A stretch of 64,000 nt of DNA from Pristionchus mayeri (lineage: Eukaryota > Nematoda > Chromadorea > Rhabditida > Neodiplogasteridae). Position numbers and translations under genes: made by a program. Each line of letters starts with the position of its first letter. Positions within the stretch are counted from its first letter, which is position 1. Shown here one piece after another: positions 2,594-39,032 of this stretch. Under the pieces are notes generated by a model. The model was not told the DNA's origin. It worked only from the letters and a program-made list of their open reading frames with translations, and did not search any database. Location of the stretch: positions 40,158,661-40,222,660 of the forward strand of contig BTRK01000002.1 in assembly GCA_036245805.1 (NCBI GenBank), written 5' to 3'.

Positions 2594-4685
2594 ATTTCTG
2601 AAGAAATTCAAGCCAACGGCCTTGCTTGGATATGGAGGATGTGGTTGCGTATTCAAGGAACAGAACATAATGGATAAGTGGAATTACGCAGTAAAAAAGA
2701 ATCGCACTACGAGGAAGGTAAGAAATGATACAGAAGTGATATTTATGAGGACTCGTGGACAAATCGAGTACATGAATTAGAGGACAATCAGCTTTAATTT
2801 ATGTTGGATTTAACGAATTGTATTGTACAGCGATTGAGTAATGTATCTATTTATTTCAGCGAAGAATCAATAAACGAGTCATTGGCTGAAGTGTTCACAC
2901 TTGCATCTCTCAGACACGAGGGCATCGTTGGCAATAACAGCTCATGGATGGAACAACCGCCCCCGGGGTGGCAGGTAGATCAAACGAGACCGATTGTACC
3001 GATTGAACTAATGTATTTCCATTGAAGAATCGATCGGACGCATCTCTTCTGAAGACTTTCGGAAAATCTGAATCGGTAAATTGAATATATGGGGAAATAG
3101 TAAGCTGTTTATTTCAGTTCAACTATAGCGATGATTGCGTTTTTCTCTACATGCAGATGGAGGTATTTTCTTTTACATTTTTATTTTCAAAATAATTTCA
3201 GCTCTGTGGACTTACTCTCAAAGAATTTCTTGAAAAGTCGCCTCAGCGAGACTCTAAGGCCAAAGTGTGCTTCAAACAATTGGTATCAGCTGTAGGATAT
3301 CTTCATCGTAAGGGAAAGATCCATCGAGATTTAATAATACATCCAACTCCAGAATATTCGTAGATGCATAAGTAGAAGTGTTTAGCCCAGCAACATTCTT
3401 CTCTCCGAGGATAATTGCCTCAAAATAGGCGATCTCGGAATCGCTGCTGATAGAGCGATCAAAAATGGACAAGAAGTCGACAGAACGAGAACTGTAGCTG
3501 GGACAATGATGTACATGGCACCCGAACAGGTGCTGTTCATAATATTTTTTTAAAATGTATGTGTTACAGAAAAAGGACAAATACTTGTCCAAAGTGGATA
3601 TATATAGTCTCGGATTGGTTTTAACTGAGATGTCTGTGCATATGACATTTAGTAAGAAAGACGAGGTGAGTAAATACCAATGACGCCTTGATTTATTAGG
3701 TTGTTGCAAAAGTCTTGCGGTTTTTTGATATTTTGCCTTCCATCTTCATTTTAGTTTGACTGATGAACTTCCACATATTGTTTACTAATGAGGCCTTGTA
3801 TACTCTTTCATATGCGCACCCTATCAGCGTTGCCTAATCGGGGAGGCGAGAACAGGACAAAGTTAAAATTGCAAAAATGTATCCATCGAAAAAGACACAT
3901 TTCTCAATATTATGTTTCCTCTGAAGCATGAATGCTCAATTCCGGGAGATTATATGAAGCTCCCATTTTTACCTATACATACTTTTTCTCATTGATGATG
4001 GAGGTTATATCCTTTCGAGGAATTCATTGAACTGTAAATGACTACATTTTGCATTTTGTATGTTGATTTTGCATATTTTTGAAAATGAGAAATTCAAATT
4101 TTCTGAAACGAGAAAGGTGCAGGGGCCAATATTGTTTTCTTTGTATGAAGCCTCTCGGTGGGTGAACATAGCGCACTCATAGTGGAGCCTATATGATTGG
4201 TATTCGATGCAAAAAATCTGAACAAGTTTCATGTAACCAGAATCGACAGCATATATTCAATATCATGTAATTCGGTCCAATCTTAATCGAGACACAGTTG
4301 AAAAATATTTTCTGAAAGGGTATAGGTGATACTTCCCAGACATCAGTATGGGTAGGTTTCGTGAATTCTGCCGGCAAATATCCAGTAAAATATATTAAAT
4401 GCAATATTTTGAGAATCAATTGCAATTGTGTTCATCATAATGTATCCCATTGATCGCGATATTGGATTGATTGAAATGTATGCATGTAAAGTACAAGCAT
4501 ACCTCTAAACACTGCTGTGCTTGTTAGTTATTGTGATTTGTTACAAAATAATTATGATAGTTCAAAATACGGACACAAAAAACCGCAAGACTTTTGCAAC
4601 AACCTTATAATTCCACAAATATCAGGTTTTCCGTAATTATCAGAAAGGACGGCCGAATACAATTCTGAATCATCTGCCTGAAGTG
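2594..4685 (+). pseudogene. eIF2alpha-kinase-like kinase domain, copy 1, damaged
   Basis: Exons are about 2594-2717 (glycine loop GYGGCGCVF, lysine in YAVKK), 2860-2974 (ending WMEQPPPGWQ, as in PERK/GCN2 kinases), 3118-3162 (FLYMQME), 3202-3332 (LCGLTLKEFLEK to HRDL), 3386-3529 (DLG in place of DFG; MYMAPEQ), 3570-3665 (KVDIYSLGLILTEM) and 4625-4685 (VFRNYQKGRPNTILNHLP). Family knowledge: the PPxGWQ box and YMxPEQ are typical of eIF2alpha kinases. Damage: the exon ending in HRDL lost the following lysine and the splice donor that the - strand copy keeps. A 0.9-kb mariner-like element sits in the following intron, and exon 4625-4685 is caught up in a local inverted amplification. No kinase end (HPYF-type) is seen. 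It was probably once joined to the sensor exons at 213-1076. Confidence 0.7.
3697..4607. mobile_element. Mariner-like non-autonomous element in kinase intron
   Basis: About 0.9 kb bounded by inverted ends TTAGGTTGTTGCAAAAGTCT and its complement, next to TA dinucleotides. The ends match the usual mariner terminal pattern (AGGTTG...AAAAGT). I see no transposase. It lies between the kinase exon ending at 3665 and the exon starting at 4625. Confidence 0.75.
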
Positions 4686-7591: not shown

Positions 7592-10500
7592 AGGCAGAGA
7601 AATCGACGCGGAATTGCCCGACGTTGTGATAAATTGAGAAGAAGTGCACGGCAATGCTATTTACTTTAGTACGCAATTACGAGTAAGTTAAAATCTCAAT
7701 TTTACTTTAAAAAGTTTAAAAAATAACGCAATCATACAAGATCTTCAAAACCGTCTTCACATCTTCTGGTGGAATCGCAGTTACTTACCCGCGTAATTTT
7801 GCAAAAGTTTTTCATTTTTAAGAAAAGTCAATGTTCAATATTCCGCAGGATGAAGTGAACATTGAAGGGGCGATCAGTACACGAATAAGGAATGGAAATA
7901 TGTACGCATTCATACTGTGGGAGAATCCTGATTCGGACGGAATTAGCATCTACGAAGGGAATGAAATTGGCAACCATTTACAGGTAGAAACGTATATCCG
8001 CAAAACAGTGAGGCATTACCGTTTTACAGGGTAAATTTGATCTACCTCACGAAAAAAGATGTGAGGCACCCTGAGGCACACCGGCAGAGCCCTAATGCTG
8101 TACAGGGTGTCCAAAAAGTATTGTTACACTTTTGAAACGCGAATTTTTTTAACATGTAGGTCGAGTTGTCAAAACCTGTAATAACACGTTTGAGCCCACC
8201 CTTCGGTGCGTTGAGGGAACCTACTAATTAGTTTCCCATAGTCATGGTTCGTCCAAATCGCTATCGTCAAACTATTATCAACCTTTGGACCCTCGGCGAC
8301 CCCCCAGATTCCATCAGGAGGAAGCTTCGTATTTCCCGAATGACAGTCTATCGCACCATCTCCCGTTTCAAGCAGTTGGGCACTGCGAAGGACCGTCCAA
8401 GATCAGGAAGACCCAAGACCGCTCTCACTCAGAAGAACAGGAGAATCGTGGAGAAGAGAGTGAGTCGCAATGCCAAACGATCCATCAGGAAGATGGCTAA
8501 GGATCTCAAGATCTCCAAAGGATCCGTGTGTGCCATCGTTCATTCTCTTCTCAAGTCCTACCCCTACAAGATGAGAAAGGGCCATGGCCTCACTGATGTC
8601 CACAAGCAGAAGCGCCTGGAGAGATGCAAGCTGCTCCTTCAGCGGGCCGATCGTGGGGAGCACTTGACTACCGTTTACTCTGACGAGAAGCTGTTCTCAG
8701 TCGAGGAGGTCTACAACAGTCAGAACACCAGGATCATCGCCAAGTCTCCTCAGCAAGCTGACGCCAGAGGTAGAACCATCTCTCGCATTGCCCACCCCCA
8801 GGCACTGATGGTTTGGGCTGGTGTGTGCTCGACGGGCAAGACTCCTCTCGTGTTCGTGGATCCCGGGGTCAAGATCAACAAGGAGTACTACACCAGGGCA
8901 ATTCTCCAGAAGGCCCTTCTCCCCTGGTCCCGCTCCCACTTCAAAGGGGCTCGCTGGACCTTCCAACAGGATTCAGCGCCTGCTCACTCGGCAAAAGTGA
9001 CGCAGGCATGGTGTCGCGCCCATCTGCCCGACTTCATCTCGAGTGAGGAATGGCCCTCGAACTCCCCCGATCTCAACCCTCTGGACTTCAGCATTTGGTC
9101 AGTGTTGGAGAAGGAGGCCTGCTCTACTCGCCACAAGAACCGCGATTCCCTCAAGGCAGCCCTTCTCAAGGCATGGGAGAAGATCGACGTCCCTTACCTG
9201 CGGGCCGTCATCGACTCGGTCCCTCGTCGTCTCAGAGAGGTCATCGCGGTCAATGGAGGCCAGATCGAGTGATCGTGCATTGTTATGTTCATATGGTCAC
9301 TGATAAATACTGTGCCCCGTTTGAGTTGTCTATGTTGCTTTTAAAGAAAGATACATGGTTTTATCCGTGTAACAATACTTTTTGGACACCCTGTATTATT
9401 AGAGGTAAAACACCGTGTCCACCCGAATATCTTTTTCATTTTAGATTCCTGCACCAATCTTGACCCGGACCCAAGAAGCTGACCCATTCTACTACTTCTA
9501 CTGTGCAAATTTCCTCTACGCTCTCGACATCGATTCACTGCAGTTTCTTCCGCCCTTGAAGATCAGCTTTAGTTGTTTCTAAAGCTGTTGCGTCTCGAGC
9601 TGTTGCAATACGTCTCAGCCCCTCGCGTAGTGTTGAATCAGGGTTTTGCAGTTAAAGAGCATTCCTTGAATATTCGTTTTTATTCGTCAGAGTCTAGTAA
9701 AGAAATAAGAACGGGCTATTTTATTTATTTCAGCAAGTTTGATGTAATTGTTGGATTCGCTGGAATTTTCAACGGAGTGATAACGATGACGGGCGAGAAC
9801 AGATACGATCAATATTTTGCACATGCCGAACTACCCATTGAATATGTTAGTTCTTCCGGAGAGTATATTATTCCTGAATTTTTAGATGATTAATCGAGGA
9901 TCCGCAACTGACGTAATACTACCACAATCCAGGTACGTACTCAACATCGAATTAATTTTTGAAAGAAATATATTAACGTGTTCAGCAAAACATGTCAAGT
10001 CACATTTTGAATTTGAAAAGTTTTTAATAATTTAGCATGTCACCAATCCCTCGAGCGCCCTAACAAGCGTTATCGTAGATAAAGATGAGATGATTGAAGT
10101 GAGATTTTAAATTTTTAATGTTGATGATATGCTTTTGTTTCAGGGTCTTGTTGCAGAAGTTGAGAAAATGAAGGCGATGCTGGATGAACAAACAAAGAAA
10201 CTCAATGTGAGTGCGCAATGAAATCGGATAAAATTTTTAAAAAATCGGCTAGTATGTTATTGCAATTATAAACTGGTGTAATATAGTTTGCAAAGGAGTA
10301 AAATGTTAACGCATAGTTCTACTTCTGTGAAATGATTGTTCGAGTAGGATCTTTCAGGTAGCAGGTCAGTCTAAAGAGAAATCCGCAATTCACTCCGGAC
10401 CAAAATGCGTGATCTGTCTCGATAATCAGGTTTGCGCACCCACAAATTTGATAAAAAGTGTCATTTGTATTATTTTCCAGCCCAATATGGTCTTCTTCGA

Positions 10501-11218: not shown

Positions 11219-12390
11219 CCACTTCAGGCAGGTGATTCAGAATTGTGTTCGGCCGCCCTCTCTGATAATTTCGGAAAACCTGTATATTTCTTGGAATAAA
11301 TAAATGCGTCACTTGTTGATCATTCACCTCATCTTTCTTGCTGAATGTCATATGCACACACATCTCAGTTAGAATCAATCCGAGACTGTAGATATCCACT
11401 TTGGACGAGTATTTGTCTCTTTTCTGCAATACTTTTTCAACGTTTTTTTTAAAAAATTAATAGTATCAACCTGTTCGGGTGCCATGTACATCATTGTCCC
11501 AGCTACAGTTCTCGTTCTGTCGACTTCTTGTCCATTTTTGATCGCTCTATCAGCAGCAATTCCGAGATCGCTGATTTTGAGGCAATTATCCTCGGAGAGA
11601 AGAATGTTGCTGGGCTGAGAAACAGTACATGTCCACTGCTATGGAATATGAACAACCTTCAAATCTCGATGTATCTTTCCCTTACGATGAAGATATCCGG
11701 CAGCTGAGACCAACTGCTTGAACCAAACTTTCACCTTTGCCAAATCTCGCTGCGGTGATTTTTCAAGAAAGTCTTTGAGTGTGATTCCACATAGCTGCAA
11801 CCGTTTTTTAAAATTATTTATAAAAAAATAAAAATGCAATACCTCCATTTGCATGTAAAGAAAAACGCAATCATCGCTATAGTTGAACTGCAATTGACTA
11901 TGAAACATTTCTCAATTTAAACAGAAAATACCGATTCAGGTTTCCCGAAAGACTTTAGCAGGAAGCGTCCGATCGGTTCTTAAAAACTTCAGTTTCTCTC
12001 ATTAATTACATGAATCGGCAGATAATTAAAGACCATGACATAATAAAAAAAATCTATAGCATGATCAAACACTGTACCTGCCATCCGGGGGCGGTTGTTC
12101 TATCCACGAACTGTTATAACCGACAATGCCCTCGTGTCTGAGAGATGCAAGCGTGTACACCTCAGTCAACGATTCGTTTATTGATTCTTCGCTGCAATGT
12201 ATATTCTTAAAGGCATATTCATTTTTTTATTTCCCGAAAGAATGAATATGATCAAATCTCGCCTTCCTCTTAGTGATATTCTCTTCACTGCGTAATTCCA
12301 CTTGTCTAATACATTTTGAGCCTTGAAGACACATCCTTATCCTCCATATCCAAGCAATGCCGTGGGCTTGAACTTCTTCAGAAATCTAAC
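11219..12390 (-). pseudogene. eIF2alpha-kinase-like kinase domain, copy 2 (inverted)
   Basis: This is the inverted paralog of the kinase at 2594-4685. Reading down the - strand: glycine loop and lysine exon (about 12390-12265, YAVKR), the PPxGW exon (about 12190-12078), FNYSDD...LYMQME (about 11890-11845), LCGITLKDFLEK to HRDLK (about 11795-11665), NILLSEDNCLKISDLGI to MYMAPEQ (about 11618-11473), KVDIYSLGLILTEM (about 11424-11328) and VFRNYQRGRPNTILNHLP (about 11279-11219). It keeps HRDLK and its donor, which copy 1 lost. However, the glycine loop reads GYGG-stop-GCVF: a TAA near 12335-12337 replaces the cysteine codon of copy 1. Copies 1 and 2 have therefore been disabled by different mutations. 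No sensor exons are seen upstream and no final kinase exon downstream. Confidence 0.75.
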
Positions 12391-12867
12391 GTGACGAAAA
12401 ATTTTTTCATGATCATATATTATTTCGCTCACTCGGATTCGAATTCCTTGTTTTCTAGATTATTTTTGTTGTTCATTCTCTGATCAACTTCGTGTTTTCC
12501 GCCGTTCGTCTTGGTGATATCAGCCTGGAGGAACTGAATTGATAATGAATTGATAAAAGTAATATATTTCTTTGCAAATATATACTCGACTCGTTTTTTA
12601 AAAAGAATTACACTTTCCTGTTTTTTTAGATAAAGTAGCCAGGAACTGTGCTACACTAATCATCCAAAGGTTTATCTAATTGGGACGGCTGCAACGGGTA
12701 GTTCAACTCACTGATAATAGTAAGACATTAGATACGAAATGTAAGTGGGTATCCTCTTAGAAAGCACGAAAGGGTCGCATTTTTGTTGTTCTCTAAGGTA
12801 ACGTCGTTCGATCGCAGGAACTCGAGGTCAACTACTCCACGTTACACGATTAAACCCATTCGGCCGG

Positions 12868-15159: not shown

Positions 15160-18100
15160 CCAGCCGATTGCGCGCGCCACGGCGCGCGCAATCGACTGGC
15201 GTGCGCCGGGTCGTTTTCTTAGTTGGCTAGCTTTCAAGTGTCCCCACTCATCGATTTATTCTTTCGCAATTTATTCAGAGAACTTCTTCGAATACAATGT
15301 TTGTCTGTCGATTAGAATCAGCTTGAACAATTAAACCTTCCTTTGAACGAACTCGGGAAAGAGCAACGTATAATTGACCGTGAGAGAATACTTCCGAAGG
15401 GATCCAGAGGCCAATGTTAGAGAAGGACTGACCCTGGGACTTGTTAATGGAGAGGGCATACGAATGGCGAACGGGGAATTGAGTGCGTCTAACTTTGAAG
15501 GAAAGGTTCTTATCATGATATCAATCGATACGGGGAATGACAGCGAATTCTCCCTTTCGGTCGCCACATGCGAATCGACAACCGAGGGAGCGGGGTCCTA
15601 GATGCTCTACGATAAGTCGGGTACCATTGCACAGGCCGGCAGAAACATCTAGATTCCTCTGCAGCATGACAATAGAGCCCTTCTTCAGCTTGAGAGTGTG
15701 GGGAGGGAGAGTAGAGGGAGACTCTTATTGAGGAACTCAGTGGGGTATGTGGTGTGATCGGATGGTTCATCAGATACGACCTCATCTCGCGAGAGATAGA
15801 TCCTCTCTTCCCCAAGCATCCGCCCATGTACATCGTCATTCAGACGGGTCACATCCACATTCTTAGGGGTCAGAATGACCTTCTCGCAAGGGTCAGTGGA
15901 AGGGTCGACTACTTCCCCGAACACTTTTTCGACGATGTTTCCATCGCACATGTTCGAGAGGGGAAGAGTCACCTTTGACTCAGCATCATTCGCAGATCCG
16001 TCGCCCACCTTGAGGAGGAATTCAATCCATTCCGTATCTCCCGAAGGGACTCTCATGTTTGAGATGAGAGTGAGGGATCGGAACTGACTCCAGAGAGGAG
16101 ATCTCTTGATGCACGCATCGACTTGATCAGCTCTCGTTCCCTTCTCCACCACCGGGAGAATCTCGCGGAAGTCTCCACCGAGAATGATTAGTTTCCCTCC
16201 AAATGGTCGATCGATCTGGGTGATGTCCCTGAGAACAGCATCGGCTGTGTTCAGCGCCGCCTGGAAGAATGGGGATTGTATACTTTAAGTGATGAGTAAA
16301 TAGAGGGAATCTTACCTTTGGGATCATCGACGATTCGTCCCAGATGATGACGTCATTTTCGGCAAGTTCCTTGGCGTCCTGTTCTTGTCTTCTATGGTTG
16401 GAGGACTCGCACCGATTGCTGATATTGAGCTTGAAGAGAGAAGCGGATGTTCGACCGCCTGGGAGAAGATTGGCTGCGATTCCTGTCCAGGCAGTGCAGA
16501 CAACCTAGACATGAAGATTATATTGAACTGAAAATGTAGATGCAAAAATCTCACCTTAAGTCCATTTCCGACGAAGATGTTGTAGAGTGTGGTGTAGAGG
16601 TACGTCTTCCCGCTTCCACCCGGTCCGTCAAGGTGAAAGAGACGGGGGAGAGAGGCATCCTCCAACACTCCCAGAATCGCGTCAGCAGCGGCTTGTTGCT
16701 GAGGGTTCAGAGTCGCGTAGAGTCTCGCGCCTTCCGCAGCACAATAAGCGGGATTGGCAAGGTTGAGGTTTCTGAGTGGAGGGCGGACGGCTGGCTCAGG
16801 AACGAATCTGGAGAAATCGTTTCCTGCCCTGAAAGAGAGAATTTTATATTTGTTCCTGCAAAGTTATCAATATGCAGAATCACCTTCGGAATCGATCAGC
16901 AATATCGAAGTAGGCGAGTGCCTCAGCCTCCTCCTCTCCTGCTCCCATATGACGGTAATCCTCACTGAGATCCCTTTTCATTGCTTCCCAGAGTGCCTGT
17001 GGGTCGTGGACCTCATTGAAAAGAAGAATGGCAGTGAAGGCGGATCGGAGAGCAGCGAGGACTGAGTGGCCAGCCCATTCCTTTAGACACTGGAGATACT
17101 CACTCTCGTCCTTAAGAAGGCCGTGAGCCTTTGCTGCTTCTCCGAAAGTGGGGTAGGTCACTGGCACTCCGTTGGAATCCGAGACAGTACGGAGATCCTC
17201 GAATGAAATCGGTCCCTTGATGTTGAGGAGGAGGATACGGAGGTTGAATCTCTCGGTATCGTGGGGAGGGACCGTATACATGCGTCCTATCTGTCTAGTT
17301 CCGCTCTTTCGCTCACTCCATTGGCCGTTCGGCTTAGTGAAAGTGAAGCGAGTGGGGAGGTCGAAGTAGAAGAATTGGCGAGAATCGACGAAGGAGGGAG
17401 GGATGGTGCCACTATCGATAGTCTCCGCAGACTCCCTGTTCAACTTGAGCCATGCTGTGAGAGTAGTATCTGTGGCAGCCCTAGCTCGAAGCTGCTCAGG
17501 AGGCTCGTTGGGGTCGAAGGTGACCTCTTGGAAGTTCGGTTCGTGAACGGCCAAGCGGTACACAGTGTCCGATTTCCTTTCGTTCTTGAAGCCGAAGATG
17601 TGATGGATTGCCTCTGGGGCGCACACATATCGGGCATCGAGATGGGCACGGATTTCATCAACGATGACTCCGTCCCCGTCCCTCTGTCCGGTACGGAAGA
17701 GGCTGAGAGAGGCGCGATCGGGCCCTTTGTAGACGTACTTGAATAGATTCTTCACTGCCTCGATAAATGCGCAGATTTCGACATTGGCGTGCGCATTGTA
17801 TGTCAGCAGGAAGTACACATTGTAGGACACGATGTGACGGTTGTCGAGGTTATGGCCTCCGTACTCGACTACACTCCCGTCATCCCTCCTACGGTACTGA
17901 GGGTATCCGTCGACAGATTTGTACTGTCCGGGAACTCTTTGGGGAAGCGTTTGGAGCATTGCCCATCTCTGGTGACTCTGGATTGAGTGCACCGCAAGGT
18001 CGGTGGAGCATGTTCGTGGTGACGATGTGATACAGCTCCGGGTCCGTCTCGGGATCAGGGATCTCCGCTTGGACTAACCTGTCGACGTCCTCCGGAGTGG

Positions 18101-19760
18101 AGTGCGCGGCTTTGTGTCCTCACTCATGATGAGGAGGATGTGAACGTGAGGGAGACCTCTCTTCTGCCACTCGAACACTGCGATATAGGCAATGACGCGG
18201 CCGAGCTTGTGGCGATGGAGCAGATCGTCGAATACCCTGTCGACCTGATGCACGCAAATTAGGATAGTCAATTGAGAAGAGAGAGTTAATATTTAACTCA
18301 CCTTTAGTTTGAAGACCCTTGAGATGAGATCAGGTCGATCAGAGGCAGTCTGACCGGGCTCGAGATTCTCGGTGATCTCCCTCCACGCGGGGTTGCACGT
18401 GAAAGTAAAGAAGATGTCGGGCTTGCCGTATTTGGAGACAATCGCCATCGCGTCTTGGAAGTCCTGGGTCATCGCTCGAGGACTACCCGGATGAGTCGAA
18501 GGGAGGATGGTCCTCTTTCCCGGAACATCAGAATCTCCCGCAAGATAGTCCTGAAAAATCAAAGCATGAGAATCAAACTCTGAGAAATTCTATTTTGAAA
18601 ATTATTTTAATTTTGCATACCTGTACAGCCCGGTAGGAGGCGCTCCGAAGCTGATTTTGGTTTGAGCGGAAATAGTTGAGTCTATTTTGTTCGATCTAAA
18701 ATGGATGGGAAGTCAGATATATTGAGGTAGTAAAGCGAATTCTAAGTGAAAATGTACTTACCTTGACCCAGGAGTCCACGGCGAACTGCTGGAAGAGGGC
18801 TTTTCCATGGTGGATGGGATTGAATTGTCCTTCTCGCACCATCATGAGGTAGCTGTAGTACTCCTTCTGGGTGATTCGAGTCCTCTTCCTGCCCGATGGC
18901 TTCTTCTCTAGTTCAGGGTGCCACCCGTCCTTTCCCGTGGGGAAGAATATGGGATAGGTGAGGGGATCGCAGATCTTGTCGATATCCCGAATCGTCATGA
19001 GTCCTCCCCCTCTAGGATGTACTGCCAGAGATCGAGTGACAGGCACATCGTCGTCTTCACCCACGTAGACAACGGCCACTTCATTTGCTTGGGGCAAGAG
19101 ATATTTCATAACAGCATGGAATGTTCTAGAATTTCCTGGATTTTCTGAGCAATTTCTGAGGCGCTCTCTCCATAGCACGCACTATCTCGTTTCCTATGAT
19201 CGGCGAAAATCACGCAAAATGCACCGTCACATTGGATAACGGTAATATTAAACTTGGCGTACCTGAGAAGAAGCGGGCACCGCAGTTGCCGCATGTGGTG
19301 TCCATTGCGCCGAGATAATTCGGCTCTGTCACCGGTCTTTCCCTCTCCTCGTTCCTGTGTGCTTTCATCCTCTCTCTATGATCCATCCTTCTTTGTCCTC
19401 CTTTTCCATTCGTCTCTTCCTCTCTCCTCCTCCTGTCTCGTTCTCTATCCCGTTCTCTGACCTCTTCTCTCTCCTCTTCAGTCATTGATGCTCTTCTCTT
19501 CCTCTGCCTTTCCTGATCTGCGGTGCGTCTCGTTTCCGTCTGCTGCGGATTTTCGCTCGCACGGCGTGATCTGCTAAATTTCCTGAACTTTCTGGAAGTT
19601 TCGAACAATCGATTATAGAAAGATCTAGTACAACTCCAACAATCAACCTCTCAGCCACGAGGGCTCAGCGGGAGAGGAGGAACTTCCGGGTTATGATGGA
19701 AGGAGCGCGCGCTAAAGTCCAATGTGAAATTGCTGCTATTCATGCTCGCTTCAAAAGATC
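15160..19760 (-). mobile_element. Helitron, decayed, inside a chemoreceptor gene
   Basis: The - strand encodes a Rep/helicase Helitron protein. At the 3' end of that strand (15163-15200) a GC-rich hairpin, cgattgcgcgcgcc against its complement, fits the hairpin Helitrons carry just inside their terminus. I do not find a clean CTRR end next to a T, so the exact end is uncertain. The 5' end is not resolved either: it may lie before or after the tandem arrays at 19820-20565. Confidence 0.8.
15300..19608 (-). pseudogene. Helitron Rep-helicase protein, disrupted
   Basis: In protein order: a charged N-terminus with a CGNCGARFF zinc motif (19608-19270); a Helitron N-terminal region (ITQKEYYSYLMM...FQQFAVDSW, 19178-18760); Rep exons with PDIFFTFTCNPAW (18562-18300) and the HUH motif GLPHVHILL (about 18140); the Rep tyrosine region KNLFKYVYKG (about 17730); then a PIF1-type helicase with Walker A GPGGSGKTY (about 16615), IIWDESSMI (about 16330), LGGDFREILP (about 16175) and INKSQGQS with [14 protein letters not shown] (about 15450-15350). 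Several short introns (e.g. 16265-16316) are spliced in frame. Disruptions: a 2-base insertion near 18115, a shift near 17960, a shift near 15690 and an in-frame TGA near 15540. The family replicates by rolling-circle transposition. This copy is non-functional. Confidence 0.85.
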
Positions 19761-20010: not shown

Positions 20011-20569
20011 TGACCCATGGCTAATTATCGATTGGTATACGGTAGTTGACCCAATGCTAATTATTGATTGGCATACGGTAATTCTAAGATCAAAGATCAA
20101 AATCATAAATCTGACCCACGGAATAAGAGGTGACCCACGGCTAATTATCGATTGGTATACGGTAGTTGACCCAATGCTAATTATTGATTGGCATAGGGTA
20201 ATTCAAAGATCAAAGGTCAAAGTCATAAATCTGACCCACGGAATAAGAGGTGACCCACGGCTAATTATCGATTGGCATACGGTAGTTGACCCAATGCTAA
20301 TTATTGATTGGCATACGGTAATTCAAAGATCAAAGGTCAAAGTCATAAATCTGACCCACGGAATAACAATTGACCCATGGCTAATTATCGATTGGTATAC
20401 GGTAGTTGACCCAATGCTAATTATTGATTGGCATACGGTAATTCAAAGATCAAAGATCAAAATCATAAATCTGACCCACGGAATAAGACGTGACCCACGG
20501 CTAATTATCGATTGGTATACGGTAGTTGACCCAATGCTAATTATTGATTGGCATACGGTAATGGATTGA
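20011..20569. repeat. 120-bp satellite array, 4.6 copies
   Basis: Units start exactly at 20011, 20131, 20251, 20371 and 20491. Each contains 'ttgacccaatgctaattatt', 'gattggcatacggtaattc', 'aaagatcaaaggtcaaagtc' and 'tctgacccacggaataa'. Units differ by only a few bases. As 120 is divisible by three, one frame stays open for 171 codons; this is an artefact. Diverged single units of the same family lie at 25420-25759 (mirrored at 26024-26360) and 29320-30020. Confidence 0.9.
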
Positions 20570-21425: not shown

Positions 21426-21967
21426 CATGTGTTTTGTCCGTTGAGACATGCTCATCTAGAAAACGTTTAATCGAGTTCTCCCTTCAAATTAAAAAGATCA
21501 TTATTGCTAGTAGAGCCACGATAAAGATGTTTTTCGTCCTAGTCTCCTATTTCCCAACAGCATAACAGCCTCTGGCTTAATGTTATGTTTACTGTGACCA
21601 ATATTACTTCATTGATTCATTGAGAGTTTGTTGAATGAAATCGACAATAAACAAGGACTTTATCCGATCTTGATATTGGGTTTTGATGCGCAACTTGAGT
21701 GCTTCATCAACAGAGTGTGTAGTCCTGCTCAATTACTCGCGACCCAAGATCTGAGATTTATCTAATATTTATAAATATTATATTTATATATTTTATTTAT
21801 AACTTATATTTATACATTGATTCATTTTTAGAAAAATATATGCAACAATGTCAAATGGAGATCTTTCGATTACATGTTTTTCGTTATACTATACTACTAT
21901 CTCTTCAATTCCCATTATTGTCACACCTCAAAGTAAACTGTCGAAACGAATACTGTAATCTTTAGAG

Positions 21968-22076
21968 TTCGAGAAATGATACAATGCTCTGTTCATGATA
22001 CACACTCTCTAAACCGGTCGATGGACGAGAGAGTGTGTAGAAAGAAGAGAGCGTGATATCATTTCTCGAACTCTGC
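21968..22076. repeat. Short hairpin family H, copy 2, overlapping a stop codon
   Basis: Perfect outer stem agagttcgagaaatgat / atcatttctcgaactct around the family core cacactctctaaaccggtcg. The right arm supplies the last codons and stop (22059-22061) of the minus-strand gene at 22059-30147. Confidence 0.75.
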
Positions 22077-25000
22077 CAATTTTGTGTCCATTTTGCTCAC
22101 CATCACGCAGAGCACGGCGAGTAGTGCGGGCAGGAGGGCGGCGATCGGGGACGGAGTGCCGTTTTGATGGATCATCGCGCTGGGATTCGCCCTTCCCTCG
22201 ATCTTCCCGTTCGGGTACTCGAGATGGACGATGAACGAGCCGTTCGTGCTCATGATCTGCAATTAGATTGTTATATATTTGGACGAATTCATTACAAAAT
22301 ATCGATGAAAGGAAATTCATAAAGATATATATTTTTGTGATGTTTTCGTGAAAAGGGGATATCGTGAATATATACTTCGTAGCGAAAATGCAAGAAGATG
22401 GGGAGAGGGTGTCAGGATTAGAGTTTTTTTCTCAGTAACGTTGTATTATTTTCAGGCGACTTTTACGGACACTAGATAGCAGAATCCCCCTACTCACAGA
22501 GAAATTCTTGTTCATCATTGGCACGCGATCCTCCGGAATATCAATCTGGCAGCTGATGCCCTTGTCGACGATTGTTGTCTGCAAATATTTGTTTTATTTT
22601 TTTATTTTTTTAAAATAATATTAGTTTATCATCTCTGAACACATACAGAAGAACCAGCTACCGTATACCCACACCATATACCATGGTGCATTTTCCCAAA
22701 TCGCCGAAAACTCGCCTTGATCACGTTCTCGCTGATTCGCTTCACGTGCAGGTGCACGAGATCCCCGTTGGGCTTCGTGTTGAAGTCCGTGCACAGCGTA
22801 GTGTCCCACTTAAATTTGTTTGTATATTTCTGTATACGAATTATTGATTTAAATCTCTAAGCATAGTCTCCAATTTAAATGTATGTTAATTTTTTTTTTT
22901 CGTAATTCGGGTTACCATCCCTTCCTGTCCGTATTAGCTCAGCGAGAGAGTGGAGTGTGGAGACGGTGCCCCGAATTTGATACGACTTTTAAAGCTTACG
23001 CTTTTGCGATCTTGCGATTCTTCATCGGTAGGTCATCGGAGGTTGCCAGGTGCATCTGTTTTTTTTTTAAATATTTCCTATTTTCGAAAAGTTGATCTTT
23101 GATCTATCTTGCCTCGATCGTATTGCGCTTCGGCTCCCAGTAGTTTCTGCAAAAAAATGCATTTATGTTTTGAAGGTTAAACTCTCGCAGAAGGTCGCAA
23201 CGACTATTTGCGAACTTTTCACACAAAAAAGTGAAACTCACGAATCCTCAGCGCCCGATCCTCCCCAGAACTGGACGATCTTCATGAAGTACTTAGAAGG
23301 ATTCTCAGAAGAAGCGAACACAAGTGCGGGCGTAAAATAATTTTTTAAAATAATATTTAAAATGTATTTACACTGAGATTTTTCGCTTCTCCCGAGGCGC
23401 GCATCACGGCAACCATCTCAATCTGCTTGCCGACTGGTAAGCCATTGATTGTCTGAAATTATATTTTTTTTCAAAACTACAACGAGCGAGCAATGGCCAG
23501 ACTCACTTCAGTTTGCATGCTCTCTCGTTTCTCTGCGAGAGAGCGTGCAAATTGAAGAGAGTCAGACCATTGCCGACTTAGACGAATTGTTCCTAATATA
23601 TGATCATATTTTCAGAAGAGAGAGTTTGGGAATGGATTATGTTCATGTTAGAGATCCCCGTTGTATGTGTTGGTGAGACGTACCACTAGCTCTTTGTTTT
23701 GGAACGGCGTACTGCTGAGGTACGTTTGCGTGTCGTTCAGGGTCAGGTTGATGTTAGTGTGATGCTCCTTGTACCAGAACTGCAAAGATATTTGCAACTC
23801 TTGCAGACCGCCGCAGATGACTAATTTCAAATTTCCTTCATAAAAATAGTCCAAAACGGTATTTTTGATATTTGATGCTTACAATGGTTGCATTGTGGTG
23901 AATGTACTTCGAATCGATATAAACGGATTTGATGTTGTCCAGAGACTTCTGGAATTTCCGGATTCCAGACCAGTAACCTGCAGAAAAATCATTAAATATA
24001 ACAATCGTTTTTTAAATAACATTTTCAAATTCCTTACCATTAAAGAAAACGTTCATGTGGTACTTGTCGATCTTGACTAGATCGAGCTTCCACCATCCGT
24101 GCGACATCGGATAGTAGTCGAGTGGTTGAATAACGTCCTCTGGTGCGGGCTCATCCAACCAGCGACCATTCTGCATTGTAATCAATTAATACACATTTTT
24201 AAACTATTTTATTGACTTGATTTTTTTTTCCAGAAAACAAGAGAATATGAGCTATTTTGCATAGATATTGTTCTAAGAAATGCATTTTGGAAATAATAGT
24301 AAAATATGTCCCGAATTTCATACTAATTGTGGTACACATTCCACCCGTAGCCTTCTTGAGATACCGTACTACCGTACTGCACTCAAATGAACGCTCCAGA
24401 CGCAGTCTCGCAGGAATGTCGTCATCCTGAGAAAATAAAATGCAATTTGAAAAATAAATAATTATATCCCACAACCAATGATCTGACTCTCCTCATATCA
24501 CACACTCTCTCGGCGGTTAGATAAGGCGAGAGGGAGCATGCAGTTTGGAGAGAGTCAGACGAGTACTCTATTCCACCAATCATCTATCTGTCATAGAAAG
24601 AATGGACAAATATGTATCATTTTGAGAAACAAAATAAGGGACCTGAATTGTGGGTAACTACAGGAGAACCAAATGAGAAATGCTTTATTGATGTGAACGA
24701 TTGCGTTAGAAAGATAATCATGAATATCACAACACAAAAAATAAAGGAATTTTTAGGGCCGACGAAATGCATCGCTGATGCAAGCTGTCAGGATATAGTG
24801 ATATAGAGATATCTATGTTCTTGCCCTTATCTCACCTCAAATTGTTGGTTTTCAGTATCGTAGAATGACACATTCACCCTGAAACATGTTCAAAATTAGC
24901 ACATGCGTATGCATTAGGTTTATATTTTTAAATTATTCTTTATTTTCAAAAAAAAATCTTTTTCTTATTTTTTAAAAAATAATTAACAGTGATTTACTGA

Positions 25001-28000
25001 CGATTCCGGAACTTGGAAATTACCATAGTGGTCGAATTGGAAGGTGAGTACGGCGCCTGGAAAAATAAATGTAATTTTTATGAAATAAATACGCATAATT
25101 ATAACATAATGATGTTGCGCTCAAAGATAAACGTCCACAGATCAAAGGATTTGTGCGGCCCGGAATATTAGTTGACACCCCAGGTGACTGGTGATGGCGA
25201 TTGTTCGGCACTTCTGCAGACGACCGGACCACGTCAAAAGGGTTCATCCATAGGTTTTACTACGCAATTAGCCGGTCGTTTTTTTAGATGGTAATGCGCT
25301 TGAGTACAGTGCTCAGATCTATCTTAAAATGGATGTCTTCCTAAGTTGAGCTTGATGTACGTACTACTGGTTAGGATGTTGCGACCTGTACCGGCCTTAT
25401 GCAGAAGTGCAGATCGTTCAAGGATCAACGGTCAAAGCGCACATATCAAAGATCAAAGATAAAAGTCATAGGCGAGACCCACGGAACACGCAATTTAGTT
25501 GAACCAATACAAATGTTCGCTACCTACCGTACGTCACAGAGTCTGACACACTAACTAATAGGTGACTCAAGACGACTGCCGATGGTATACAGTAGATTCT
25601 AGGATCAAAGATCAGGGTAAAGGTCAAAGTCAAAAGCGTGATCTTCTGAATTATATGTGAGCAAGGCTAAATGCTGCGGTTTGCTGAAGTTCTAAGATCA
25701 AATATCAAAGTGCAAAGGTCAAAGTGTGATGCAGGAAATAATAGTTGTCCCAATGCGACATTCCTTGGGTCAAACATATTTCTAAAAAACCAAAATCGAA
25801 AATAAAATTAATGTAAATTATATTTCCGTATATATAATTACTGTAGAATCATCTTATGATCTGTTTGGGATTTTTAGAAAATTTTTCGATTTTTTTAGCA
25901 TTGACTTTAATTTTTTGCACCCTCACCATTTGCCTTGGTTGTCAATTAATATTCCGTGAGCCGCATTATTGGCTTTGACATTTGAACTTTGATATTGTAT
26001 CCTTGAATACTAGCACACCATAAGTCGCATTGGGACAACTATTATTTCCTGCATCACACTTTGACCTTTGCACTTTGATATTTGATCTTAGAACTTCAGC
26101 AAACCGCAGCATTTAGCCTTGCTCACATATAATTCAGAAGATCACGCTTTTGACTTTGACCTTTACCCTGATCTTTGATCCTAGAATCTACTGTATACCA
26201 TCGGCAGTCGTCTTGAGTCACCTATTAGTTAGTGTGTCAGACTCTGTGACGTACGGTAGGTAGCGAACATTTGTATTGGTTCAACTAAATTGCGTGTTCC
26301 GTGGGTCTCGCCTATGACTTTTATCTTTGATCTTTGATATGTGCGCTTTGACCGTTGATCCTTGAACGATCTGCACTTCTGCATAAGGCCGGTACAGGTC
26401 GCAACATCCTAACCAGTAGTACGTACATCAAGCTCAACTTAGGAAGACATCCATTTTAAGATAGATCTGAGCACTGTACTCAAGCGCATTACCATCTAAA
26501 AAAACGACCGGCTAATTGCGTAGTAAAACCTATGGATGAACCCTTTTGACGTGGTCCGGTCGTCTGCAGAAGTGCCGAACAATCGCCATCACCAGTCACC
26601 TGGGGTGTCAACTAATATTCCGGGCCGCACAAATCCTTTGATCTGTGGACGTTTATCTTTGAGCGCAACATCATTATGTTATAATTATGCGTATTTATTT
26701 CATAAAAATTACATTTATTTTTCCAGGCGCCGTACTCACCTTCCAATTCGACCACTATGGTAATTTCCAAGTTCCGGAATCGTCAGTAAATCACTGTTAA
26801 TTATTTTTTAAAAAATAAGAAAAAGATTTTTTTTTGAAAATAAAGAATAATTTAAAAATATAAACCTAATGCATACGCATGTGCTAATTTTGAACATGTT
26901 TCAGGGTGAATGTGTCATTCTACGATACTGAAAACCAACAATTTGAGGTGAGATAAGGGCAAGAACATAGATATCTCTATATCACTATATCCTGACAGCT
27001 TGCATCAGCGATGCATTTCGTCGGCCCTAAAAATTCCTTTATTTTTTGTGTTGTGATATTCATGATTATCTTTCTAACGCAATCGTTCACATCAATAAAG
27101 CATTTCTCATTTGGTTCTCCTGTAGTTACCCACAATTCAGGTCCCTTATTTTGTTTCTCAAAATGATACATATTTGTCCATTCTTTCTATGACAGATAGA
27201 TGATTGGTGGAATAGAGTACTCGTCTGACTCTCTCCAAACTGCATGCTCCCTCTCGCCTTATCTAACCGCCGAGAGAGTGTGTGATATGAGGAGAGTCAG
27301 ATCATTGGTTGTGGGATATAATTATTTATTTTTCAAATTGCATTTTATTTTCTCAGGATGACGACATTCCTGCGAGACTGCGTCTGGAGCGTTCATTTGA
27401 GTGCAGTACGGTAGTACGGTATCTCAAGAAGGCTACGGGTGGAATGTGTACCACAATTAGTATGAAATTCGGGACATATTTTACTATTATTTCCAAAATG
27501 CATTTCTTAGAACAATATCTATGCAAAATAGCTCATATTCTCTTGTTTTCTGGAAAAAAAAATCAAGTCAATAAAATAGTTTAAAAATGTGTATTAATTG
27601 ATTACAATGCAGAATGGTCGCTGGTTGGATGAGCCCGCACCAGAGGACGTTATTCAACCACTCGACTACTATCCGATGTCGCACGGATGGTGGAAGCTCG
27701 ATCTAGTCAAGATCGACAAGTACCACATGAACGTTTTCTTTAATGGTAAGGAATTTGAAAATGTTATTTAAAAAACGATTGTTATATTTAATGATTTTTC
27801 TGCAGGTTACTGGTCTGGAATCCGGAAATTCCAGAAGTCTCTGGACAACATCAAATCCGTTTATATCGATTCGAAGTACATTCACCACAATGCAACCATT
27901 GTAAGCATCAAATATCAAAAATACCGTTTTGGACTATTTTTATGAAGGAAATTTGAAATTAGTCATCTGCGGCGGTCTGCAAGAGTTGCAAATATCTTTG

Positions 28001-30147
28001 CAGTTCTGGTACAAGGAGCATCACACTAACATCAACCTGACCCTGAACGACACGCAAACGTACCTCAGCAGTACGCCGTTCCAAAACAAAGAGCTAGTGG
28101 TACGTCTCACCAACACATACAACGGGGATCACTAACATGAACATAATCCATTCCCAAACTCTCTCTTCTGAAAATATGATCATATATTAGGAACAATTCG
28201 TCTAAGTCGGCAATGGTCTGACTCTCTTCAATTTGCACGCTCTCTCGCAGAGAAACGAGAGAGCATGCAAACTGAAGTGAGTCTGGCCATTGCTCGCTCG
28301 TTGTAGTTTTGAAAAAAAATATAATTTCAGACAATCAATGGCTTACCAGTCGGCAAGCAGATTGAGATGGTTGCCGTGATGCGCGCCTCGGGAGAAGCGA
28401 AAAATCTCAGTGTAAATACATTTTAAATATTATTTTAAAAAATAATATTATAATTTTCTTAAATTTTTTTTGACGTTTACGCCCGCACTTGTGTTCGCTT
28501 CTTCTGAGAATCCTTCTAAGTACTTCATGAAGATCGTCCAGTTCTGGGGAGGATCGGGCGCTGAGGATTCGTGAGTTTCACTTTTTTGTGTGAAAAGTTC
28601 GCAAATAGTCGTTGCGACCTTCTGCGAGAGTTTAACCTTCAAAACATAAATGCATTTTTTTGCAGAAACTACTGGGAGCCGAAGCACAATACGATCGAGG
28701 CAAGATAGATCAAAGATCAACTTTTCGAAAATACGAAATATTAAAAAAACAGATGCACCTGGCAACCTCCGACGACCTACCGATGAAGAATCGCAAGATC
28801 GCAAAAGCGTAAGCTTTAAAAGTCGTATCAAATTCGGGGCACCGTCTCCACACTCCACTCTCTCGCTGAGCTAATGCGGACAGGAAGGGATGGTAACCCG
28901 AATTACGAAAAAAAAAAATGAACATACATTTAAATTGGAGACTATGCTTAGAGATTTAAATCAATAATTCGTATACAGAAATATACAAACAAATTTAAGT
29001 GGGACACTACGCTGTGCACGGACTTCAACACGAAGCCCAACGGGGATCTCGTGCACCTGCACGTGAAGCGAATCAGCGAGAACGTGATCAAGGCGAGTTT
29101 TCGGCGATTTGGGAAAATGCACCATGGTGCGTGGTGTGGTGTGGGTATACGGAAACTTATATTTTAAGAAAACAATAAATAATTGCAGACAACAATCGTC
29201 GACAAGGGTATCAGCTGACAACAATCGTCGACAAGGGCACCCCCAATTCATGCTTGCGCACCGCCCCAAGTTTGGGGCGGTGCTCAGTACCCCCCTGTCG
29301 CCGCCGGCGTGGACACCTATGCTCCGAATAATATGTGACCAAGGCTCACTGCCGCAACATACTTTAGTACGAAGATCAAAAATCTACAAGGGCCAAAGTA
29401 TACGTGAGAGCCGCGGAATATTAGTTGACCCAATCAATGCTAAGAGTGGTGACGTTCGGTTGTTCAAAGATCAAACATCAAAATGCAAAGGCCAACATCA
29501 AATTGAGATGCTCCGAATAAAGGGAGACCCATGGGTAAATATGGTAACATACGACAGATCAAAGCTCAACGAATAAATTCGCGTAATAGGTCCGCGTAAT
29601 AAACGAGACCTTGGGTAAATGTTTGACCCAACGAAGGTCAAAACCATACGTTTTACACACGGAATAATAATTGGCCAAAGGCGAACTTCCGCGGCATACT
29701 GTAGCTTAAAGATCAAATAGCAAAGATCAAAAACATAAGTCTGACACACGGAATAATAGTTGACTCAATGCTAATCGTCGTTGAATGATGTAGTTCAAGG
29801 ATCAAATACAAAGTCTAACCCGCAGAAAAAGGCCGGTGTGCGAACCGTTCAAAGATCAAAATCATAAGTCTGACCGGCGGAATAACAGTTGCCACAAGGC
29901 TAATGGCTGCGGCATACTGTAGTTCAAAGATCAAAGTTCGAAAATCAAAATCATTAGTCTGCCTTGCGGAATAATGGTTGACCCAAGGCAAACTTTTTGG
30001 TATACGGTAGTTCAGAGATACGGTAGTAATTACCATTCATAAATCCGTCTTTCAGGACGAAGTGATTGCCGCCGAGGGCCGTCGTTGTAAGCGTGCACTG
30101 CACGAGATTCGCTGAGAGAGCAGCAGCCAGCCAGAGGAAATCCGCAT
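22059..30147 (-). CDS. Secreted, possibly GPI-anchored galectin-like protein (parent of palindrome)
   Basis: Exons on the - strand: 30147-30034 (hydrophobic signal core ADFLWLAAALSANLVQC), 25056-25002, 24878-24836, 24426-24373, 24170-24038 (HGWWKLDLVKIDKYHMNVFF), 23977-23883 (WSGIRKFQKSLDNIKSVYI), 23779-23684, 23452-23372 (VGKQIEMVAVMRASG), 23303-23242, 23146-23113, 23055-23002, 22808-22716, 22578-22498 and 22256-22059. Nearly all joints keep phase. Exon 1 ends in phase 1 and exon 2 completes it, as in the paralog at 58591-61843. The C-terminus has a hydrophobic run, PIAALLPALLAVLCVMV, that could be a GPI signal or membrane anchor. The 'F-N-VFF-G...F.K.L..I.S.YI' pattern resembles galectin strands, but this is tentative. 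Intron 1 is about 5 kb and contains an inverted copy of exons 2-12. The start codon exon is not certain. Confidence 0.75.
23492..23578. repeat. Short hairpin family H, copy 3 (mirrored at 28205-28292)
   Basis: Intronic hairpin: 'gcaatggccagactcact' pairs with 'gagtcagaccattgc', with core catgctctctcg / cgagagagcgtg. Confidence 0.75.
24480..24566. repeat. Short hairpin family H, copy 4 (mirrored at 27217-27303)
   Basis: Intronic hairpin: 'tctgactctcctcatatcac' pairs with 'tttggagagagtcaga', core cacactctctcgg / gcgagagggagcatg. Confidence 0.75.
25420..25759. repeat. Diverged GATCAAAG satellite units in intron 1
   Basis: Words such as 'aggatcaacggtcaaagcgc', 'agacccacggaacacgcaat' and 'ctaggatcaaagatcagggt' match the 120-bp satellite at 20011. 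They lie in the same orientation as the units at 29320-30020, and both sets lie in intron 1 of the parent gene. This suggests one array that was split by the inverted segment. Confidence 0.7.
25760..26023. repeat. Palindrome spacer: piece of IR element family R3
   Basis: 264 bp between the arms. Words 'ccttgggtcaaacat', 'ttactgtagaatcat', 'tccgtat' and 'gggatttttagaaaat' match, inverted, the centre of the element at 41528-42303. Confidence 0.7.
26024..29216. repeat. Right arm of the 6.7-kb palindrome
   Basis: Inverted copy of 22551-25759. It ends at 29216 inside the exon TTIVDKGIS. Immediately after, 'ctgacaacaatcgtcgaca' repeats the preceding 20 bp (29190s and 29215s), a junction duplication. 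Then follows sequence with 'gtcgccgccggcgtgg', the end motif of element family R3. Confidence 0.95.
26727..29216 (+). pseudogene. Inverted, truncated copy of the secreted galectin-like gene
   Basis: Exons 26727-26781, 26905-26947, 27357-27410, 27613-27745, 27806-27900, 28004-28099, 28331-28411, 28509-28570, 28666-28699, 28753-28806, about 28999-29091 and a partial one from 29187. They match exons 2-12 of the parent almost base for base, with no stop introduced. It lacks a signal-peptide exon (satellite sequence lies there) and the C-terminal exons. It lies antisense within intron 1 of the parent. It is therefore unlikely to make a secreted protein, but it would be transcribed as antisense in every parent pre-mRNA. 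Confidence 0.85.
29250..29320. repeat. End fragment of IR element family R3
   Basis: 'caccgccccaagtttggggc' forms a small hairpin, followed by 'gtcgccgccggcgtgg' and 'cacctatgc', as at the ends of the element at 41528-42303. It lies directly outside the palindrome breakpoint. Confidence 0.6.
29320..30025. repeat. Diverged GATCAAAG / TTGACCCA satellite units
   Basis: About six degenerate units with 'ggaataatagttgac', 'ttcaaagatcaaa' and 'cataagtctgac', the same family as 20011-20569 but far less uniform. It ends just before the signal-peptide exon of the minus-strand gene. Confidence 0.75.
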
Positions 30148-30695
30148 CTGCAAAGTGGGAAGATTAATATTTTAGTGCTCTTGGGGTACTGTAATATCGA
30201 TTGGGTATCAGACCCCATGTTTTAGGACGATTATTATAGCACTATGTAAAGTAGGCGATAATAACGGATTCCGGAAAATGCGGACTATCTCAATTTGTTC
30301 TGATGTATCTGCACTAATGATACTAGAGAGTTTGCTAACGGTATTAGTCACACTATCTTTAACATTTTGGGTAAAAATAGCGAAAAATAAGGGCAAAAAT
30401 TCGATGAAAATATAGAAAAATAGGGAGAAAATAGGGAACGAACCGTGCGCTGCGGCGACCAGACGAGAGAGTGATTTGGAAAATGGAGGAACACGTCATC
30501 GTTCGATTCTCGGACAATGTCTCATTATCTGAACAAAGGCCGTTTTGGAGAGTGCAAATTGATCAATTTTTTTGCGCTCACCTGACACCGAATTTCTGCC
30601 ATATTTATGCAAGATCTTGCAAAAACCATACAAATCATTGTTCTGACACAAATTTCAGCATAGTCCTCCATTTCTAACATTTCAATTTCAAGGAC
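30148..30695. other. Intergenic region between divergent genes
   Basis: Separates the 5' end of the - strand gene from the first + strand secreted peptide gene. It must hold both promoters, but I see no recognisable element. The start codon exon of the - strand gene may be hidden here. Confidence 0.35.
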
Positions 30696-38000: not shown

Positions 38001-39032
38001 TGACTTTGCACGATCGGCCTAGCAACTCCGCGATGAGGCTTCGAAAGTGCAACAACAAGGGCAACACTGATAAGAGTAATGAGAAAAAAAATTTGAAACT
38101 GGTGAGATTACTGCCCAATCTTTACTTTGTTGAACAACTCTGAGAGAATTGTTTTATTTTAATAGTGCGTTATCAACCACTGTATCTACATTATCTTGCA
38201 GTTGCAAGCGATTAAGTGAGTGTTGCAACGCGAATGTAAACTTGTGCGTTGCAATTATTAATTAGCAGCTAATGAGCAGCAACTACTAATTAGTAATGCC
38301 ATGCTGCGAAAAAAGAGGACGAGTGCCGAAATCTGAAACGCTTACCGCATCTACTATCACTTCATCAGCTGATACCATGAGCCTTCCGTGATCCAAGATC
38401 TGCTGGCGAAATCGCTCAAGAACAAGTCGTACGCTCTCATTAAGCAGTTTCCCATCGTGCTTGGCAGGTGCCCGGACGTAGACGTACGGACTAAAAATGA
38501 AGCAACATTGAGCAAAAGATTTTGGAGGCATGGGGAATCGAACCCCAGACCAGCATGCGAAGCGCGCGCTCTACCCCTGAGCTATGCCCCTATACGCTCC
38601 ATTCTCCCACAACAGATCCCACAAGACAAGAGCTTCAAATTGTGCGCAATTCTTGCAAAAAGGTAAACAAGAGCTCACTGCTGTGCATCGCACGTCTCCA
38701 TGCAATATACGTATTCGGGGCATTCCGTCCTGTAACCGAGCACATCCAGTCGCGAAAGAGGAAATTCATTGCCGATCTCGATTCGAAGAACACTATCGAT
38801 GGGAGAAGTGGACGGCAAATCGAGCTGAAGAACTCGTTCTTATCAACGCTTAAACGGGACACGAAAGGACGCCACATGACACTATGCACTTCTAAAGTAG
38901 CCATCTGAACAGTTGAGAACGATAAATTACAAGGCAAAAGCTGAACTGAAATTTAAAATTCATACCAATCCACAATTCATGATCGAGCAGCTCCTTCAGC
39001 TCCTCGGTGGTGTTGAATTCGTGCAGGGTCAT
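35057..39032 (-). CDS. FR47-type (GNAT) N-acyltransferase
   Basis: Exons on the - strand: 39032-38966 (MTLHEFNTTEELKELLDHEL), 38904-38863, 38824-38694 (LDLPSTSPIDSVLRIEIGNE), 38490-38346 (YVYVRAPAKHDGKLLNESVR), about 38072-37939 (VIVDHEVGMFYMTASQREEL), about 37873-37777 (TVEPVDVDRDGDTIHALW), 35649-35562 (SSGQLVGWAMSGRFGQ), 35414-35329 (NEFVLPEHRGKGLGKAV) and 35201-35057 (VFKYVEMTNEVVFAS...SPHWTLWRED, stop). LPEHRGKGLGKA is the acetyl-CoA-binding GNAT loop. The 'S-P-WT-W' C-terminus is usual in nematode glycine-N-acyltransferase-like proteins, which transfer acyl groups from CoA. Phases match for most joints. Weak points: the joints exon 1/2 and 4/5, and a TAA just before the frame of exon 6. 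A dead mariner fills one intron. Confidence 0.75.
35874..36612 (+). pseudogene. Mariner transposase relic
   Basis: Pieces in different frames: an N-terminal stretch (GIGSIASKKTTFP), then WLDRLVTGNEKWVL followed by a TAA at about 36342 and DYNHSRAPLVG, then LVMWWGADGVI and TGTKYVTYL. The second is the mariner box that normally reads TGDEKW: the first catalytic aspartate is asparagine here, and the next tyrosine codon is a stop. The second half with the other two aspartates is missing. Clearly dead. Confidence 0.8.
37140..37625. repeat. Interspersed repeat family R1, copy 2
   Basis: Shares 'atacggcttcctaaggtcga', 'ttttcgaactctacgtga' and 'agctagccgtttacttccaa' with 13199-13625 and 44400-44860. 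Nested in the decayed mariner. Confidence 0.7.
38523..38591 (-). tRNA. tRNA-Ala(CGC)-like, probably degraded
   Basis: On the - strand: acceptor AGGGGCA / TGCCTCC, D arm GCTCAGGGGTAGAGC (A box TAGCTCAGGGGTAGAGC), anticodon loop TTCGCAT, T arm TGGGGTTCGATTCCCCA (perfect B box). Discriminator A fits alanine. However, position 1-72 is mismatched, the anticodon stem CGCGC/GCTGG has two mismatches and the variable loop seems two to three bases short. It could be a tRNA relic. It lies in an intron of the acyltransferase gene, same strand. Confidence 0.6.

Follow-up and report, generated by a model that had tools for sequence, protein, structure and literature searches.

Probable element-associated inverted duplication in the first intron of a decaying Pristionchus mayeri gene

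A gene of the nematode Pristionchus mayeri, here called A, carries within its first intron an inverted copy of its own downstream exons, so that most of the gene forms one half of a large palindrome. The most probable history of this locus, which we hold at a probability of roughly 0.7, is a recent inverted duplication, associated with a dispersed palindromic element, in a decaying gene; the two arms would then have been homogenized by gene conversion, and small interfering RNA output from the resulting hairpin is possible. The locus lies in a stretch of 64,000 nucleotides that was analyzed as a whole (the window, C2:40158661-40222660), and DNA searches covered the genome of 290.8 Mb in 73 contigs. 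Exon limits and splice sites of A and of its sister locus B were read from the genomic sequence, not from cDNA.

The palindrome and its parent gene

The inverted exon copy that the initial annotation placed inside the first intron is real. Its two arms, which with the spacer make up a palindrome of about 6.5 kb, align over 3120 columns, of which 3077 are identical (98.6%, with 10 mismatches and 33 gap bases), a match far above chance expectation, and fainter homology extends outward on both sides (Table 1). The structure therefore combines kilobase arms of more than 95% identity with a short spacer of 264 bp. The copy had been described as spanning exons 2-12, and this proves slightly generous: exons 2-11 are present, but the right arm holds just the first 30 nt or so of exon 12, which starts at 22578, and these are decayed. 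Exons 1 and 13 and most of exon 12 have no counterpart in the right arm, so the palindrome does not consist of two complete facing paralogs.

Table 1. Features of the A locus and of a distant relative (window positions)
Feature	Position	Strand	Remarks
Exon 1 (signal exon) of A	30034-30147	-	after TTTGCAG acceptor; ATG frame stops at 30052
Exon 2 of A	25002-25056	-	begins GAVLTFQFDHYGNFQVPE...; 3' limit by eye, donor GTCAGT
Exon 4 of A	24338-24426	-	limits by eye; 8-bp tandem duplication GTACGGTA
Intron 8, left arm	23337-23371	-	acceptor missing, 29-bp deletion
Exon 12 of A	22498-22578	-	TTIVDKGISCQIDIPEDRVPMMNKNFS; decayed right-arm counterpart for first ~30 nt only
Last exon of A	22059-22256	-	hydrophobic C-terminus; outside palindrome
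Left arm	22669-25759	-	original exons 2-11 of the parent, A; fainter homology on to ~22547, into exon 12
Spacer (loop)	25760-26023		264 bp, centre module at 25761-25898
Centre module of dispersed palindromic element	25761-25898	+	138 bp, starts at second spacer base
Right arm	26024-29139	+	headless inverted copy of exons 2-11 within intron 1 of A
Right-arm outer end	to ~29216-29220		decayed homology, corresponding to start of exon 12
Junction filler	29188-29237	+	29188-29208 (21 bp) recurs at 29217-29237, 1 bp short of element module
Terminal module, same element family	29239-29325	+	abuts right-arm outer end; up to 98% identity to copies
Distant family member C, proposed silencing target	58600-61850	-	no 22-mers in common with left arm

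The identity of the parent copy is indicated by B, which was found at C2:39844632-39847888, about 0.33 Mb from A, when the left arm was used as query in a whole-genome DNA search. Among the best 40 of 1680 candidates, this search returned the two arms, B and shorter dispersed repeats; apart from the arms themselves, only B matched over a long distance. B is 92.6% identical to A over 21892-22882, 88.3% over 22889-24417, 80.5% over 24647-24822 and 81.3% over 24829-25201, and the similarity includes both the exon 1 region (29936-30164, 87.7%) and the sequence upstream of it (30358-30568, 92.0%). In B, exon 1, exon 2 and the rest of the gene are collinear on one strand, and a comparison of the 19-kb B stretch with itself revealed no inverted arm. 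Because B has exon 1 beside exon 2 without an inverted arm, the parent gene comprises exon 1 and the left arm, whereas the right arm is an insertion in intron 1. Judged by the layout of B, exons 1 and 2 were ancestrally separated by an intron of about 1 kb; intron 1 of A would now span 4977 nt.

The initial annotation had the signal exon pairing in phase with exon 2 at 25056 and not with the inverted copy. The B layout bears out a parent gene on the same strand, but the phase does not hold. Read from the ATG at 30147, exon 1 of A gives MRISSGWLLLSQ... and runs into the stop. The family protein carries on into exon 2 in the +2 frame alone, and that frame lacks a start codon. The signal exon reads MRLFHLLAAALSSNLVQC... 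in B and MRLFLFLATALVAG... in a relative, D; A is one base shorter near the start, and the B and D exons, with their extra base, run from MRLF... straight through.

Two further lesions are apparent in A, and both affect the two arms. The duplication in exon 4 shifts the reading frame and is found in both arms but not in B. The intron 8 acceptor reads GCAG in B; the right arm has GACG in its place, and in the left arm it is deleted. A thus appears to lack the intact reading frame and splice sites of a protein-coding gene, and with three apparent lesions its normal splicing and translation look already lost. B has suffered a 5-bp frameshifting deletion in exon 7 and an adjoining 15-bp deletion across the donor site. 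The exon 4 acceptor of A is absent from B, in which an alternative in-frame AG is present (read by eye). A candidate stop codon in exon 4 of B was rejected; the codon is TAC and the frame is open.

The two genes nonetheless retain the imprint of selection. Over 266 codons (exons 2, 3, 5, 6, 8, 9, 11 and 12, with parts of 4 and 7), A and B differ by 19 synonymous and 14 nonsynonymous changes, and the differences fall 9, 7 and 19 times on codon positions 1, 2 and 3, respectively. Differing bases number 38 among 920 aligned in exons versus 208 among 1569 in introns. This codon pattern, together with the lower divergence of exons than of introns, argues that A and B were under coding constraint until lately. 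A looks like a secreted-protein family member that broke recently, and B looks damaged as well.

Most of the family members found are located on chromosome C2. D (L035:2511-7228, at C2:35.3 Mb) encodes 348 amino acids as spliced by eye, has a start resembling a signal peptide and is apparently intact. A Pfam search with the joined exons of A, three single pieces and D gave nothing above the cut-off, and the best E-value in a PDB sequence search with D was 0.31. The joined exons of A found no protein at E <= 0.001, a weak negative result, since D likewise missed itself in the protein search. The only database hit of D is P0001, a P. mayeri protein with 28% identity, which in turn finds itself alone. 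The family seems to be narrow.

Junctions, arm differences and a second palindrome

Both junctions of the right arm are marked by sequences that recur across the genome. The centre module is up to 97% identical to copies at many genomic places (59 matches listed, several per place, the window's own included), and 44 matches, again with the window's own, were listed for the terminal module. The two modules occur together in all 9 distinct places represented by 12 fetched loci, which had been picked by hits to one or the other module, and they do so in the same order and orientation as at A; the downstream end module is partial in L005 and L008. In the 7 places fetched for the centre module the end module is always present, although that of L006 is 1545 bp off, in the overlapping L043. 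The distance from centre to end module is 237-487 bp in 7 of the 9 places and 715 and 1545 bp in the other two, compared with 3340 bp at A. Both modules are parts of one palindromic element of about 1 kb. The copy with 1.5 kb between centre and end module (C5:25784862-25786621; L006, L043) may hold inserted sequence, and a 210-bp inverted repeat (95%) is present in the fetched stretch. Much of the rest of the spacer at A resembles, in inverted orientation, a degenerate repeat of intron 1. A 120-bp tandem repeat (4.6 copies, 95% matches) occupies 20011-20562 of the window, and degenerate relatives of parts of its unit are found in intron 1 of both A and B.

The outer junction carries what appears to be a repair scar. 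Re-copied filler is a scar type of templated end joining or template switching, and the 21-bp repeat next to the terminal module is best read as filler of this kind. The inverted copy would have arisen by a local fold-back or template switch at the element in intron 1, and the filler fits templated repair during its formation. Over its last 80-120 bp or so the right arm differs from the left arm far more than B does, which would fit either error-prone synthesis at the break or an old outer end that was spared by conversion.

The differences between the arms are unevenly distributed. No mismatch falls in the inner 2107 bp and 7 fall in the adjoining 973 bp (Fisher p = 3e-4, with the boundary set after the data were seen); the remaining 3 are adjacent, at 22677-22679, and similarity drops steeply beyond 22669. 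B agrees with the right arm at 5 of the 7 outer mismatches and with the left arm at 2, and at the adjacent 3 it agrees with the left arm. The 10 mismatches are thereby split evenly, with B matching each arm at 5, so that the assembled arms are not copies of one another. From this one genome we infer that arm-to-arm gene conversion, following the duplication, homogenized the inner part of the palindrome. A mismatch gradient of similar look would be expected if the duplication were young and its outer end error-prone.

A second and larger palindrome is located 0.28 Mb from A (C2:39877466-39887803 and 39888478-39898810; L046, L030, L031 and L047), with one family member in each arm. Its 10.35-kb arms align over 10,352 columns at 99.62% identity (6 mismatches, 33 gap bases) around a 674-bp spacer. 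Five of the 6 mismatches are in the inner 2.3 kb or so, the opposite of the A palindrome, and thus the central-first pattern is not general. No module of the A element was found in this stretch. By eye, the signal exon of a further gene seems to lie in its spacer, with the body of that gene in the left arm and a headless copy in the right.

The local frequency of such structures was gauged in 248 kb of sequence, made up of the window (64 kb), a C5 stretch (50 kb), the B stretch (19 kb), the second palindrome (35 kb) and further loci of the family (80 kb). Inverted repeats with a spacer, at least 300 bp long, at least 95% identical and less than 20 kb apart, comprised the A palindrome, the second palindrome, a 768-bp pair in C5 and two short pairs in L036, both inside one element. 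The second-palindrome stretch is a biased sample, having been fetched because an inverted family pair had shown there; in the C5 stretch, which was picked regardless of content, the 768-bp pair (98%) is the only spaced pair of at least 95%. Large gene-bearing palindromes may be frequent in this genome. Literature searches, mostly run without the species name, returned no report of P. mayeri palindromes or of the A locus. Palindromes are nowhere mentioned in the P. pacificus repeat paper, and the main text of the P. mayeri genome paper (PMC11544036) mentions neither palindromes nor inverted sequence.

The window contains several other repeats and genes. Beyond the 3' end of A, minus-strand frames at 15688-19181 match PIF1 helicase (E 7e-23), with Helitron_like_N below the cut-off, and are probably a Helitron remnant. 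A plus-strand frame of 346 amino acids (8232-9269), with helix-turn-helix matches and DDE_3 just below the cut-off, has the look of a Tc1/mariner-like transposase and sits between inverted repeats at 2125-3697 and 11295-12860 (80-88% identity). A nested palindromic element covers 53602-56526, with 188-bp inverted repeats (98%) around 53785-54488/54622-55320 and 55362-56307. A 131-amino-acid frame at 53182-53574 (+) matches a protein kinase domain (E 1.7e-10), and a tRNA-Arg (tcg) is encoded at 38522-38592 (-).

Silencing potential and competing explanations

A single possible transcript, from exon 1 to the 3' end of A, would span the antisense arm, the 264-nt loop and the sense arm in that order, as the initial annotation proposed, with up to 3077 paired positions. 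If transcribed, the A locus may accordingly form a hairpin of about 3 kb and feed small-RNA pathways. The proposed target at 58.6-61.8 kb is a different matter: gene C shares no exact run longer than 14 nt with the left arm and not one 22-mer, and its role as a silencing target is not supported. No left-arm 22-mer was found in D or in eight other family stretches either, and the longest exact run in D and the other fetched family stretches is at most 19 nt. The 19-kb B stretch, by comparison, contains 547 of the 3070 left-arm 22-mers (262 of the 667 exonic ones), and its longest exact run is 114 nt. B, itself damaged, was thus the only gene elsewhere found to have extended complementarity, and by this measure B is the sole silencing candidate found besides the dispersed intron repeats.

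How the palindrome came to be present admits explanations other than local repair. Near-perfect palindromes are a known class of error in long-read data, and a missed adapter or an inverted haplotype join could have produced one here. However, 10 substitutions and 33 gap bases separate the arms, B agrees with each arm equally often, and both the spacer and the outer junction are specific. Moreover, the available text on the published assembly (291 Mb, laboratory strain RS5460) describes PacBio HiFi data (Canu, minimum read length 10,000) with Hi-C and an androdioecious species (PMC11544036); HiFi reads of at least 10 kb exceed the 6.5-kb palindrome. An assembly artefact is unlikely, and we give it very little weight. 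In a Pack-type capture by an element with terminal inverted repeats, the right arm would have traveled inside a mobile element and landed in the intron of its own donor, which would account for element modules on both sides of the arm in their normal order. Yet the arm is flanked by one terminal and one centre module and not by both element termini, one half of the element was not found, and besides B no further genomic copy of the segment appeared among the best 40 of 1680 candidates. Insertion beside its own source is also better explained by local repair, and such a capture appears distinctly improbable.

The remaining alternatives concern what the locus does. The initial annotation envisaged that the gene is intact and that splicing competes with folding in its pre-mRNA, so that it regulates itself and its paralog C. 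Exons 1 and 2 do share a strand and do flank the copy, and B displays the ancestral joining; but the stop in exon 1, the frameshift in exon 4 and the loss of the intron 8 acceptor, the latter two in both arms, and the near lack of shared sequence with C make this reading highly improbable. A working hairpin-RNA locus, in which a transcribed pseudogene yields a hairpin that is diced into small RNAs silencing B and A, in the manner of Drosophila hpRNAs or Arabidopsis VIM4-VIM2, has somewhat more in its favor: both arms would lie in one transcription unit, B shares the 22-mers described above, and A and B both look damaged though their exons were constrained until lately, as silenced genes would be. 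P. pacificus, moreover, makes 26G, 22G and 21U RNAs, as C. elegans does (available text of PMC6468775). On the other side, with its only long match itself damaged, such a locus would have few regulatory targets remaining; exons are not clearly spared by the small number of arm differences (1 of the 7 single mismatches is exonic, which by hand estimate is not significant); and the available text of PMC2453295 names P. pacificus as unable to respond to external dsRNA. On balance a working locus of this kind is unlikely.

A more speculative variant would make A a nascent hairpin locus: the element-associated fold-back would have placed both arms under a single promoter, the resulting 3 kb or so of dsRNA would have given rise to small RNAs that silenced A and B, and both genes, under relaxed selection, would have begun to decay with the hairpin still in place. 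This sequence of events is a long shot. Under the preferred reading of an element-associated duplication in a decaying gene, the structure of A can be explained without a dedicated function.

Comparison with known systems

In our view, the origins of hairpin-RNA genes are mostly inferred from old and worn examples. At A, one can still make out the parent, an insertion-free sister, the junctions and a scar resembling repair, and the host is a selfing nematode whose genome was assembled from HiFi reads. If A is transcribed, it would offer a direct test of whether an antisense copy newly arisen in an intron can silence the family it came from and push it into decay; if it is silent, it is a clean case of element-linked palindrome formation, with a larger second palindrome nearby.

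The intron of A would pair with exons of its own gene, whereas the inverted repeats of structured introns in C. elegans reportedly pair within non-coding sequence. The two cases are alike in having inverted repeats in introns. The structured introns are found on C. elegans autosome arms (Reich & Bass 2018, as cited in the available text of PMC12401492).

In Caenorhabditis, pairs of paralogous genes form long, near-perfect inverted repeats for which gene conversion was proposed (Zhao et al. 2007, PMC1803023). They resemble A in several respects: the host is a nematode, the arms are of kilobase length (2207 bp at the F44E5.4 locus, with a 126-bp spacer and 99.7% identity), and conversion is the proposed cause of their similarity. 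The Caenorhabditis arms are more similar than their age predicts, and the same may hold for A, where the mismatch gradient and the decayed outer end would fit conversion. According to the available text of that paper, the genes of each Caenorhabditis pair face each other, and orthologous pairs exist in other species of the genus, whereas A has a headless and broken copy in intron 1 of its parent.

Hairpin-producing loci provide the other comparison. The VIM4-VIM2 locus of Arabidopsis Cvi is an inverted repeat of about 6.4 kb that, like A, involves related genes, with a 50-bp centre and read-through transcription, and class II elements are present at the related loci (PMC13213937, available text). 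Drosophila hpRNA loci produce inverted-repeat transcripts, are evolutionarily young and have been proposed to originate from their target genes (PMC10317233, available text). Small interfering RNAs and trans-silencing of VIM1 were demonstrated for VIM4-VIM2, and the Drosophila loci were recognized through Dcr-2-dependent siRNAs and de-repressed targets, whereas A is known from its sequence. A stands apart in that its second copy is headless, lies within intron 1 of the parent gene and has modules of a single element at its borders.
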